Positions 3,844 to 28,855 of a stretch of 38,290 nucleotides of DNA are shown here, one piece after another. A program made the position numbers and the translations under genes. Source of the DNA: a virus; IMG/VR virus record IMGVR_UViG_3300009507_000046, positions 1 to 38,290 of that record, one strand, 5' to 3'. Positions within the stretch are counted from its first letter, which is position 1; the number at the start of each line of letters is the position of its first letter. The notes below the pieces were generated by a model. That model saw nothing but the letters and a program-made list of their open reading frames with translations. It made no database searches and was not told the DNA's origin.

Positions 3844-4011
3844 ATGCCATACATATTACTTCGTAATCAAAACATAGTTCAACATATAATTATGATTGGA
3901 CCAAAAAACGATAACTTCAGAGAATCACAAGTAGTTGATTTAAAGTTTGAAACATTAGAGGCAGCCAATGAGGTTGCTGAAGTTTTAAAAGCCGAAGTAA
4001 AAGCAGCATAG
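3844..4011 (+). CDS. Small hypothetical protein abutting tRNA-Arg
   Basis: A 55-residue protein (MPYILLRNQN... ending EVKAA). Its TAG stop shares its last base with the first base of the tRNA-Arg gene. An AGGA lies about 12 bases before the ATG. Upstream, GATAAATATAAG near 3786 is a weak match to a T4-type late promoter. Compact packing against the tRNA supports a real gene; function unknown. Confidence 0.55.
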   Translation: MPYILLRNQNIVQHIIMIGPKNDNFRESQVVDLKFETLEAANEVAEVLKAEVKAA

Positions 4012-4088
4012 GTTCCTTAGCTCAGCCGGATTAGAGCAAGTGCCTTCTAAGCACTAGGTCGTAGGTTCGAGTCCTACAGGAATCACCA
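4011..4088 (+). tRNA. tRNA-Arg (anticodon TCT)
   Basis: Full cloverleaf. Acceptor GGTTCCT pairs with AGGAATC, the anticodon loop CTTCTAA lies in an AGTGC/GCACT stem, the T-loop is TTCGAGT, and CCA is encoded. Anticodon bases are 4046-4048. It reads AGA, a codon favoured in AT-rich phage genes. Confidence 0.95.
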
Positions 4089-4094
4089 AACATC

Positions 4095-4171
4095 ATTCCT
4101 CTAGCTCAATTGGTTAGAGCTCAGCGCTCATAACGCTTAGGTTGGGGGTTCGAGTCCCTCGGGGAATACCA
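4095..4171 (+). tRNA. tRNA with anticodon CAT (Met or Ile2)
   Basis: Acceptor ATTCCTC pairs with GGGGAAT, the anticodon loop is CTCATAA, the T-loop is TTCGAGT, and CCA is encoded. The A1-T72 acceptor pair argues against an initiator tRNA. The outer anticodon-stem pair is a C-T mismatch. Whether it is elongator Met or an Ile tRNA read after lysidine modification cannot be told by eye. Confidence 0.92.
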
Positions 4172-4180
4172 AATAAATAA

Positions 4181-4255
4181 TGGAACGTAGCATAATGGTA
4201 ATGCATCGCTTTTTGGTAGCGCAGAGTATAGGTTCGAGTCCTATCGTTCCAGCCA
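4181..4255 (+). tRNA. tRNA-Gln (anticodon TTG)
   Basis: Acceptor TGGAACG pairs with CGTTCCA followed by G-CCA. The TGG start and G discriminator match glutamine tRNAs. The anticodon loop TTTTGGT gives TTG at 4213-4215. CCA is encoded. Confidence 0.92.
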
Positions 4256-4271
4256 AATAATAGGAAACAAA

Positions 4272-4454
4272 ATGTGGGTATTAGTCTTTATATATTTTTA
4301 TGACTCAACACCATACGTAGAAACATATGACGTATATACTTCAATGTCTGAATGCTTTAATGGTAGAGATGTATTAGCATCAGATGTTGGTAAAGGCGAT
4401 GGATATTTTAAAGCTGGTCAACAAGCAGTTTGTATAAACCTTCAGTCGACATAG
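4272..4454 (+). CDS. Small hypothetical protein inside the tRNA cluster
   Basis: A 60-residue protein (MWVLVFIYFYDS...) with a hydrophobic N terminus and two Cys, behind a TAGGAAACAAA ribosome site. It sits between tRNA-Gln and tRNA-Leu on the same strand. Function unknown. Confidence 0.55.
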   Translation: MWVLVFIYFYDSTPYVETYDVYTSMSECFNGRDVLASDVGKGDGYFKAGQQAVCINLQST

Positions 4455-4461
4455 ACTGTTA

Positions 4462-4538
4462 GCCCGCGTGATGGAATTGGTATACATATTTGACTTAAAA
4501 TCAAAGTTTTGCCGGTTCGAGTCCGGCCGCGGGTACCA
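4462..4538 (+). tRNA. tRNA-Leu (anticodon TAA) with a short variable loop
   Basis: Acceptor GCCCGCG pairs with CGCGGGT; the G1-T72 wobble also occurs in E. coli tRNA-Leu(UAA). The D-arm (GATGGAATTGGTATACA) is leucine-like, the anticodon stem is TTTGA/TCAAA around CTTAAAA, the T-stem is GCCGG/CCGGC, and CCA is encoded. The variable region is only GTTTT, five bases, where leucine tRNAs normally have a long extra arm. Bases 4501-4538 overlap the end of a minus-strand gene. Confidence 0.9.
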
Positions 4539-13139: not shown

Positions 13140-13168
13140 TTGACATTCTATGTCGAATCGGTTATATT
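13140..13168 (+). promoter_or_regulatory. Early sigma70 promoter, repeat copy 6, for the structured RNA
   Basis: TTGACA, 17-base spacer with GAATCGGT, TATATT. No open reading frame with a ribosome site follows. The next 580 bases are the structured RNA and tRNA-Pro. Confidence 0.85.
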
Positions 13169-13174
13169 AGTAAT

Positions 13175-13757
13175 ATAAAGAAATTCGAAAGCGGGTATTA
13201 GAGAGTAAAGACTAATACTGGTTTTTGAAAAGCCTGACTGCCAATGTACAAGGTTTTGTGAGGTGGGTATGAATATCTGGTACCGAAGGAAACCCAGGCG
13301 TTTGCTACAGACGAGAAAGTAGCTAAGGGGAGAGGCACTGCAGAAAGTCTCTCCCACGAAAACTATATTAACCTGCGTCTTGCAAATGAGGGAACCGGAC
13401 CTAAACTTTGCCAGACAATATCGTCAAAGAATCAAGGCGCAGATTAATATAGTTTTATAGAGGCAAATGGTCTAGGAGAGCTGCTAGGCCCAACGGTTGG
13501 GAACGGTGACGATGGGTGGTAGCAGGAACCGAACAACAATATGGGGAGGTGCAACTGCATCTCCTCATTCATACGGGAAAAACAGGGTGTAGCTCAGTAT
13601 GGTAGAGTGTCGCACTTGGAATGCGAAGGTCGTTGGTTCAAGTCCAGCTACCCTGACCAATTGGCAGGATCAGCCTAGGAGAGGTGTAACACACAGCCTA
13701 AAGATCGCATAGAAGACCCGAGTAATAGGGAGGTTATTAAATTAGCCTCCCTATTTT
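13175..13757 (+). ncRNA. Large ornate non-coding RNA with embedded tRNA-Pro (GOLLD/ROOL-like candidate)
   Basis: A transcript of about 580 bases is framed by a strong promoter and a strong terminator and has no convincing gene in it. Helices seen by eye: 13195-13200 with 13213-13218; 13328-13334 with 13349-13355; a long arm 13359-13371 with 13444-13456 (13 pairs), one C-A mismatch, then 13373-13382 with 13433-13442 (10 pairs); a branched region 13468-13535 with several stems; 13543-13552 with 13557-13566 capped by AACT. The tRNA-Pro follows at 13583. Phage-borne GOLLD and ROOL RNAs are also long, ornate and next to tRNAs, but I cannot confirm membership. Confidence 0.7.
13583..13659 (+). tRNA. 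tRNA-Pro (anticodon TGG)
   Basis: Acceptor CAGGGTG pairs with TACCCTG. The C1-G72 pair is characteristic of bacterial proline tRNAs. The anticodon loop CTTGGAA sits in a TCGCA/TGCGA stem, with the anticodon at 13617-13619. T-loop TTCAAGT; discriminator A and encoded CCA. It is processed out of the long structured transcript. Confidence 0.93.
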
Positions 13758-13760
13758 TGT
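13724..13760 (+). terminator. Rho-independent terminator of the structured RNA
   Basis: AATAGGGAGG (13724-13733) pairs perfectly with CCTCCCTATT (13746-13755), 10 pairs, followed by TTTGTTTTATTTTTT. It ends the RNA transcript just before the 3' end of a minus-strand gene. Confidence 0.88.
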
Positions 13761-24340: not shown

Positions 24341-24410
24341 AATAAAATTATTTCTGAGTAAATTTAAAAAGAAGAAGAAAAATAAATCGTCAGAATTTAT
24401 ATATGATTAA
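24321..24410 (+). CDS. Possible 29-residue basic peptide
   Basis: A short frame overlapping the end of the hydrolase gene: a hydrophobic start (MKILIFKIKLFLSKF) then a lysine run and KSSEFIYD. The ribosome site is weak. It fills the gap before the peroxiredoxin gene, but may be chance. Confidence 0.3.
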   Translation: MKILIFKIKLFLSKFKKKKKNKSSEFIYD

Positions 24411-24420
24411 AGGAGCTATA

Positions 24421-24825
24421 ATGCAAATAAACAACAATGGATTGTACATACTAAAAGATAACGATTATGTACCGTACGAAATACCTCAAGGTAAAGTAAT
24501 ATTATGTGGTGTTCCAGGAGCGTTTACGCCGGGTTGCACTAACAGACACTTACCTGGGTTTGCAAAGAATATGGATAACATTGGTCCAAAGGTCGTGTTT
24601 ATTGGAGTTAATGATCCTAGTGTTATGCATGAATGGAATGTTCTGCACGGTCACCCAGATATTGATGCCGTTGCCGATCCTCTTGCTGTATTTAGTAAAA
24701 GTATTAATAAAGATGTAGACTTTGGTGATTATATGGGCATCAGATGTAAACGATATGCTATGCTTATAGAGGATGGTGTGTTTGTAAAAGAATATGATAA
24801 TCCATTTATTGAGGGTGTGTTATGA
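24421..24825 (+). CDS. Peroxiredoxin (Prx5/AhpE-like)
   Basis: 134 residues. GVPGAFTPGCTNRHLPGF carries the peroxidatic Cys39 and Thr36 in the PxxxTxxC motif of Prx5-type peroxiredoxins, with FIGVNDPSVMHEWN and later an Arg (GIRCKRYAML). It reduces peroxides at the expense of a thiol donor. The ATG at 24421 has AAAGGAGC upstream. Only about 134 residues against roughly 160 usual, so compact. Overlaps the next gene. Protection from peroxide made by the Fe(II) or flavin enzymes nearby is a reasonable guess. Confidence 0.85.
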   Translation: MQINNNGLYILKDNDYVPYEIPQGKVILCGVPGAFTPGCTNRHLPGFAKNMDNIGPKVVFIGVNDPSVMHEWNVLHGHPDIDAVADPLAVFSKSINKDVDFGDYMGIRCKRYAMLIEDGVFVKEYDNPFIEGVL

Positions 24826-27357: not shown

Positions 27358-27438
27358 AGATTTATCTACTATAAAATAATAATAGTTATAATGACTGTTA
27401 CAAAATAGTTACAGTATTTTAATTAGTATTTAAATTTA

Positions 27439-27468
27439 TTGACATTTTCTCTAAATGTGATATATATA
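27439..27468 (+). promoter_or_regulatory. sigma70 promoter of the tmRNA
   Basis: TTGACA with TATATA after 16 or 18 bases (overlapping choices at 27461 and 27463). The start would fall near 27473, immediately before the acceptor piece. Confidence 0.68.
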
Positions 27469-27473
27469 ATTAG

Positions 27474-27815
27474 TGAACGTTGAAATGACGTGAATACGGA
27501 TCGGACGTGGGGGCAGTACCCACCTGCTCCACCATAAACATATCTAATGGCCCTGATCAGTCAGCTCGATGACTTGGTACTAAGTTGTGCACAAACGGCG
27601 TACAAAGGTGTATTCCTGGTCTACAAACCTAAGTTAGGTATGTTTTTGATGGGGCAGAACAAGGATCGACGGACGGAATAGCTTAATGGAGTTCATCGGG
27701 TGATCGCGTATAGATCGAATTTAATAATTGCAAATAACAATTATAAACCATCTGGATTGGCCTTAGCGGCATAATCGCAGGGGGTTGGTCACTTACCTAG
27801 CAACAGAAAAGTGAT
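27474..27815 (+). ncRNA. ssrA: Circularly permuted two-piece tmRNA
   Basis: Rescues stalled ribosomes and adds a degradation tag. The acceptor piece comes first: its 3' end has T-stem GTGGG/CCCAC (27507-27523), acceptor strand CTGCTCC, and ACCA ending at 27534. After a removed spacer (27535-27650), the coding piece starts GGGGCAG (27651), which pairs with CTGCTCC. ATACGGATC (27494-27502) pairs with GATC-CGTAT (27702-27711, one bulged G) as the P2 helix. The tag frame from GCA at 27730 reads ANNNYKPSGLALAA then TAA (27772-27774). A downstream H-type pseudoknot (GTTG/CAAC with TCACTT/AAGTGA) follows. Outer ends are approximate. Confidence 0.9.
27535..27650 (+). other. Internal spacer removed from the permuted tmRNA precursor
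   Basis: 116 bases between the CCA end and the GGGG start. Its two ends are complementary (AAACATA near 27536 and TATGTTT near 27640), so it extends the acceptor helix in the precursor and would be cut out to make the two mature pieces. Confidence 0.75.
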
Positions 27816-27844
27816 ATTCATTAAACAATAAAAAGGGTAATAAA

Positions 27845-28216
27845 ATGAAATTCGCAACAACAATCGCAGCGGCAGTATTGCTAGCTGGAACAGCGCAAGC
27901 AGAAGAAATCGCAGTAGCTGGTCAATCAATTAATTTTGGCGCAGAAGCTGATATGAACTATACAACAGGTGTAGAAACTTGGGCATTGGATTTCACTCCA
28001 TACTTAGGCGCAGATGTAATGGGTTTTGGACTAAAGGTGGAAGCACCAATGAACATCCTAAACTTAGACGATAAAGGCGTAGATGGAACATTTACCGGTT
28101 TAGAATTTAGCAGCAAATATGTACTCACAGACAACCTGAACGTCTATGGGGAAGTAGCTACTAACTCAGACATGGAATTTGGCGACGTAAAAATGGGCGC
28201 ATCGTTTAAATTCTAA
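27845..28216 (+). CDS. Small exported beta-barrel-like protein
   Basis: 123 residues: signal peptide (MKFATTIAAAVLLAGTAQA, cleavage after Ala19) and a mature part of alternating strands (INFGAEADMNYTTG, WALDFTPYLGADVMGFGLKVEAPM, FTGLEFSSKYVLTDNLNVYGEVATN, VKMGASFKF). The final Phe is typical of outer-membrane barrels. It is too short for a full porin (about eight strands at most). AAAAAGGG lies before the ATG. It sits between the tmRNA and a terminator, so it may share the tmRNA promoter. Confidence 0.68.
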   Translation: MKFATTIAAAVLLAGTAQAEEIAVAGQSINFGAEADMNYTTGVETWALDFTPYLGADVMGFGLKVEAPMNILNLDDKGVDGTFTGLEFSSKYVLTDNLNVYGEVATNSDMEFGDVKMGASFKF

Positions 28217-28312: not shown

Positions 28313-28855
28313 ATGACTAATAAACTGAAGCAACTCACATGGGCACATCACCAAGCAGCTGAACGTAGAAAATTTGCTAAGCAATTAATTAGTGGTGGCA
28401 TAGACCCATTCGTATATTACAAGTTTTTGAATTGTCAGTACTTAGTATACAGACTATTAGAAGACATTGTAATTATTCCACCAAATCTTACCGCAATCTA
28501 TAGAGCTCCGCGTATCCTTCAGGATATGGATGAGTTATCAGAAATTTATGGATTTGACGATATTGATAGTTATCCAGAATCAGTTAGCAGATGTATGACA
28601 CACATGCAAGGATTGGCTGATGCAGACGATAATGATAGCTTATTAGCTCATATGTATGTAAGGCATTTTGGTGAACTGCATGGTGGACAAATCATTAAAG
28701 CTAAAACACCTGGAAAAGGTATTATGTATGAATTTGAAGGTGATACTAAAGTACTCATTGAAGAATTTAGAAAACTATTACATGACGGAATGGAAGACGA
28801 AGCTAAGAAATGCTTTGATTTCGCATCAGAATTATTTGACGAATTATCAAAATAA
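28313..28855 (+). CDS. ho: Heme oxygenase
   Basis: 180 residues, all helical. Opens heme to biliverdin IX-alpha, CO and iron using reduced ferredoxin. TWAHHQAAERRKF carries the proximal heme ligand (His13 by comparison with the family's T-x-x-x-H-x-x-A-E), and YVRHFGELHGGQIIK (residues 115-129) is the distal-helix G-D-L-S-G-G-Q signature in slightly changed form. The usual length is 200-240, so this is compact, like phage versions. Biliverdin is the substrate of the bilin reductase encoded 1.1 kb downstream. An AGAGGG ribosome site lies before the ATG. Confidence 0.88.
   Translation: MTNKLKQLTWAHHQAAERRKFAKQLISGGIDPFVYYKFLNCQYLVYRLLEDIVIIPPNLTAIYRAPRILQDMDELSEIYGFDDIDSYPESVSRCMTHMQGLADADDNDSLLAHMYVRHFGELHGGQIIKAKTPGKGIMYEFEGDTKVLIEEFRKLLHDGMEDEAKKCFDFASELFDELSK

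Follow-up and report, generated by a model that had tools for sequence, protein, structure and literature searches.

Two cages made of RNA alone, the closed 14-mer of GOLLD and the octamer of ROOL, are encoded near the tRNA genes of phages. HIV-1 DIS, a retroviral dimerisation hairpin, bears a purine-flanked palindromic hexamer. Within the tRNA cluster of phage T4, tRNA-Arg has rnaC and rnaD (species 1 and 2 RNA; 119-139 nt) immediately on its 3' side; neither has an Rfam family at gathering score, and the 3' end of rnaC (L116, positions 1409-1547, NC_000866) resembles a tRNA T-arm and acceptor. Palindromes that switch their letters have been used as evidence of homo-oligomers for OLE and GOLLD (PMC12286853). 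The RNA compared here with these systems is encoded in the window, i.e., the whole stretch of DNA analysed, a virus record of 38,290 bases.

Transcription unit and source phage

The window belongs to a marine-type T4-like phage, as the initial annotation had proposed, with genes of the gp32-type, UvsX, DnaB-type and topoisomerase families and a tmRNA of alphaproteobacterial type; the gp32 of the closest isolate is only 52% identical to that of the window. The tmRNA is phage-encoded and permuted (27425-27865, + strand; tag ANNNYKPSGLALAA) and matches RF01849 and RF04321. Heme oxygenase and redoxin genes (28313-28855 and 24403-24825) have been observed within the metabolic set of this phage.

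The same annotation had described, between 13140 and 13760, a promoter and a strong terminator framing a stretch with many helices and no plausible gene, a long interrupted arm, and a tRNA-Pro in the 3' part. All these elements have been recovered (Table 1): the promoter is of consensus type, the arm measures 24 nt with 92% complementarity, and the tRNA is intact as judged by model match, anticodon and CCA. A longer promoter pattern, TTGACATT(N9)ATY(N3)TATATT, has five exact copies in the window (2101, 2496, 2721, 12841, and 13140; + strand); with up to 3 mismatches there are 10 matches against 1.8 expected, a number reached by none of 100 shuffles. These five sites are probably early promoters of the phage, and the shared promoter is consistent with an early synthesis of the RNA. 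The folding z-score is -7.0 for 13172-13757 and -8.1 when tRNA and terminator are left out, no shuffle being equally good in either case. A coding region was rejected: internal ORFs do not exceed 69 aa (the longest is antisense), and no reading frame is conserved across the RNA among relatives, whose length differences are not multiples of three, thus excluding such a frame. Conserved frames, which had been named as counter-evidence, are therefore absent from the relatives. The stretch is a real structured non-coding one, but its full length of about 580 nt is not the conserved unit, since relatives lack parts of it.

Table 1. Features of the RNA locus and of the tRNA cluster in the window.
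Feature	Position	Strand	Support or remark
Sigma-70-type promoter, TTGACA-17-TATATT	13140-13168	+	Same pattern at four further + strand sites
P0, 5' hairpin, 18-nt arms, 78% complementary	13184-13229	+	Sequence-variable hairpins at the same place in relatives
P1 hairpin, arms 13233-13238 / 13258-13263	13233-13263	+	Covariation; one G-G mismatch in the window copy
Palindromic hexamer UGUACA, P1 loop, predicted homotypic kissing site	13245-13250	+	Loop palindrome counts
P2, CUGG 13277-13280 / CCAG 13294-13297, enclosing UACCGAAGGAAAC	13277-13297	+	Variants CUGG/CCAG, CCGG/CCGG, UUGG/CCAA
Pseudoknot into P3 loop, 13299-13302 / 13310-13313	13299-13313	+	A-type cores only
P3, CUAC 13305-13308 / GUAG 13319-13322	13305-13322	+	Two-sided changes in 4/4 pairs
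P4 hairpin, 13328-13336 / 13347-13355	13328-13355	+	Two-sided changes in 8/9 pairs
Palindromic hexamer CUGCAG, P4 loop, predicted homotypic kissing site	13338-13343	+	CCUAGG or CUCGAG in relatives
P5 cassette alpha, long hairpin, arms 13359-13382 / 13433-13456	13357-13457	+	Common to L067, L117, L119, with different cores
Insert X	13457-13580	+	Window only among relatives; precisely absent from L007/L010
tRNA-Pro(UGG), encoded CCA, optional part	13583-13659	+	tRNA model match; absent from L009
3' tail	13660-13722	+	Near-identical in L007 and L009
Intrinsic terminator	13724-13755	+	13-pair stem plus T-run
tRNA cluster Arg, Met, Gln, Leu	4011-4538	+	Syntenic with L118 cluster

A conserved core with variable 3' parts

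The first relatives were syntenic contigs reached through the protein neighbouring the RNA, which is shorter in them; motif scans then recovered the same core in quite different contexts. A covariance model (R1) was built from this core, and motif-scan cores score 56-142 bits with it. Loose-pattern hits were tested against R1 at E 0.1, and chance hits (L022, L030, L032-L035 and others; L133-L140) were rejected, those tested having no match. By the model, 31 distinct core sequences are present in uncultivated phages, three more from a Rhodobacteraceae bin included. There is exactly one core per virus record (20 of 20, and likewise in each of 7 additional core-bearing virus records); a second match of 16 bits in one record is antisense on the core itself. 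The core was not detected in the L008 and L011-L021 records, whose contigs are fragmentary. Among isolated phages, blastn with three queries gave no homologue (the window query matched only tRNA genes among the records listed), and neither did the model in eight T4-like records; a weak 20-bit hit in the whole T4 genome lies antisense inside soc and was therefore taken as chance. In a Rhodobacteraceae MAG, the cores on four contigs of one bacterial bin (L117-L120) all differ from one another; L118 is evidently a relative of the window's phage, so phage contigs have been binned together with a likely host. No match was found in 197 other Rhodobacteraceae genomes.

The core comprises about 125 nt (13233-13355) near the 5' end of the window RNA. 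Members range from about 150 to about 580 nt, and core-only forms exist in relatives devoid of everything 3' of it. The long form of the window is its own elaboration of the core, to which a long-hairpin cassette, a second insert, the tRNA and a 3' tail have been added. Over the 31 distinct cores, 99.3% of the cells of the 23 pairs in P1-P4 are paired, and 19 of these pairs show two-sided changes; compensatory changes, whose absence had been named as counter-evidence, are thus clearly present. Cells with two-sided changes number 102, whereas shuffles give 25 and controls with slid partners no more than 15. Although the alignment followed the model and the scans drew on motif letters of P2 and P4, covariation extends to P1 and P3, on which no constraint was ever placed; all four core helices thus covary. 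In the 17 A-type cores, the pseudoknot pairs CG-n-n with n-n-CG, the n1 pair forming in 17/17 and n2 in 15/17 (UA, CG, and UG types), whereas in the 14 B-type cores both pairs are absent and CG/CG alone remains; the pseudoknot is hence present in about half of the members.

The P5 cassette of the window has 25 pairs, 8 of them with two-sided changes. Between the window and L117/L119, cassette alpha shows 94-96% identity, versus 73-77% for the cores; cassette beta is the same in L043 and L072 over 128 nt, on cores that are 53.5% identical, and in L052 it is 98-99% identical. Near-identical cassettes on diverged cores indicate that arms are exchanged while the core evolves separately. Positions 13457-13660, i.e., insert X plus the tRNA, are missing from L009, and a scan with the insert X pattern CCCAACGGTTGGGAACGGTGA gave no hit. 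At the sequence level, these comparisons establish that the core is conserved, covaries and occurs in single copy, and that its 3' arms can be exchanged. In L050, 30-480 nt downstream of the core, there is a second promoter-like TTGACA..TATATT followed by core-less cassette modules and then a tRNA-Pro; cassettes may thus also be transcribed alone.

A same-strand tRNA lies within 400 nt of the core at 20 of 30 loci, compared with 4.3% of positions in the same loci. It can be upstream, downstream or inside; in the other ten loci no tRNA is close by. The gene families beside the core are several and mutually unrelated. In five loci (L053, L059, L072, L082, and L114), a protein of about 90 aa (VVTVVAATGEYVGRMLKFDETGIVLQNPR...) has been observed next to the core; it resembles an Sm-like fold by eye and has no significant Pfam hit. 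In L118 the core stands between tRNA-Arg and tRNA-Leu, in a cluster syntenic with that of the window (topoisomerase 69% and epimerase 75% identical, same small gene). Judging from this synteny, the window copy has probably moved about 9 kb and acquired an early-type promoter and an attached tRNA-Pro.

Palindromic loops and the possible role of the RNA

Among the distinct loops, 21 of 26 in P1 and all 11 in P4 contain a perfect palindrome of at least 6 nt, where 6.8 and 0.6 would be expected; no such excess is found in five other segments of this RNA. The remaining 5 P1 loops have 4-nt palindromes only (e.g., GGCC, or GCGC within GGCGCG). The letters change among members while self-complementarity is retained: relatives carry CGUACG, CUGCAG, GGAUCC, CCUUAAGG or CCUCGAGG in P1, and CUGCAG, CCUAGG or CUCGAG has been found in P4. 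P4-loop letters entered two of the scans, the other scans and the model search being free of them; L120, recovered by the model alone, has GGAUCC in P1 and CUCGAG in P4. On a tree built without the loops, at least 9 label changes are needed for P1 and 3 for P4, when L072 and L063 are labelled by the shorter palindrome of the same loop and hexamer-less loops count as a separate state. UGUACA and CUGCAG predominate, so independent switches are few. In the common forms, as read from the sequences, the palindrome centre is offset from the centre of its hairpin, so that the palindromes are not stem by-products. In addition, adjacent mid-palindrome letters cannot pair within one molecule, and their co-changes therefore point to pairing between two copies. 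The P1 tip has no complementarity to the P4 tip, which makes homotypic contacts the natural interpretation. The maintenance of self-complementary tips despite letter changes suggests that the RNA associates with further copies of itself.

We think it rather probable, from comparative evidence, that this is a single-copy, trans-acting structural RNA of a T4-like phage lineage, self-associating and linked to tRNAs. Its transcription would take place as part of tRNA operons, except in the window, where an early-type promoter of its own would serve. Identical tips of different molecules would then pair, P1 with P1 and P4 with P4, and these kissing contacts would join copies into dimers, chains or closed rings, the last two being possible because each molecule has two contacts. 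The 3' cassettes and the tRNA would be arms or cargo on the core scaffold. In the last and weakest step, the self-assembled RNA body might, during infection, display, store or protect phage tRNAs or else bind a host component, uses comparable to those proposed for GOLLD and ROOL. Given the neighbourhood of the core, phage tRNAs may be either its cargo or co-transcribed products.

An unlikely but credible alternative is a small stable RNA, monomeric and part of the tRNA operon, a counterpart of T4 rnaC/rnaD, which would be cut from the tRNA precursor and act via a protein or as a tRNA-processing helper, with the palindromes serving something else. In five distinct loci (L053, L059, L114, L082, and L087), though not in the window copy, the core follows tRNA-Arg(UCU) by about 25-55 nt, as rnaD/rnaC follow tRNA-Arg in T4, and the similar length and the core-only forms also fit this reading, which nevertheless leaves the sequence-switching palindromes of both loops unexplained. 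Homology was rejected, as neither rnaC nor rnaD is matched by the core model even when the filters are switched off, and the likeness is therefore one of place only. Roles as a protein decoy or tRNA helper are possible as well. Less probable still is an action in cis on the gene or tRNA that follows, as a leader, riboswitch or operon-processing element: several cores are followed, at a distance of 20-110 nt, by a start codon that has a Shine-Dalgarno sequence, but the downstream genes are unrelated between clades, and in the window the RNA is framed by a promoter and a terminator of its own, the gene beyond the terminator being antisense. Finally, a mobile RNA element, intron-like or a recombination cassette, is very improbable, for even if cassettes move between cores (an identical cassette on 53%-identical cores) and the whole RNA occupies different genomic places, there is one copy per virus record, none has been seen inside a gene, no Rfam intron family matches, and the core is under pairing selection.

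Comparison with known RNAs

Leaving aside one antisense chance hit on the tRNA, Rfam searches with E up to 10 matched the tRNA alone. Membership in GOLLD or ROOL, which the initial annotation had considered, was thus rejected together with the other Rfam families and the group I and II introns, none of whose covariance models matched; its other option, a new class, has fared better. No prior description of this RNA was found in the open-access literature, and the core RNA is supported as a new, previously undescribed class. The self-assembling RNA favoured here shares with GOLLD and ROOL its phage setting, its closeness to tRNAs and the homotypic kissing loops predicted for it, a likeness of kind and not one of homology. 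According to PMC12286853, GOLLD is likewise a phage RNA near tRNA islands, sometimes with a tRNA inside, with conserved and variable halves and a symmetric kissing loop that switches palindromes; ROOL, a phage or prophage RNA also near tRNA islands, has pseudoknots and homotypic kissing loops. On the other hand, GOLLD often exceeds 800 nt and its conserved region is 3', whereas the present core is short, lies near the 5' end and has its own motifs; ROOL differs by the lack of a model match and by the lengths of the RNAs found here. In T4 rnaC/rnaD, palindromic apical loops like those of the core are not seen by eye. Another parallel is the P4 tip, A-CUGCAG-AAA, a purine-flanked palindromic hexamer on a hairpin as in HIV-1 DIS, although the RNAs are unrelated and genome dimerisation is not implied for the core RNA.

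More tentatively, and with a somewhat less than even chance in our judgement, this RNA could represent a third class of self-assembling RNA bodies in phages, unrelated to the other two, in which a small dimerising core bears exchangeable arms and a tRNA cargo. A short RNA, easily made and mutated, would make testable the general question of why self-assembling RNAs lie beside phage tRNAs, as well as that of what the T4 orphan RNAs C and D are. If this proposal is true, phages have evolved RNA-only scaffolds beside tRNA genes more than once: an independent family would occupy the same place as GOLLD and ROOL and follow the same predicted logic of self-pairing, with a core that is much smaller and modular.
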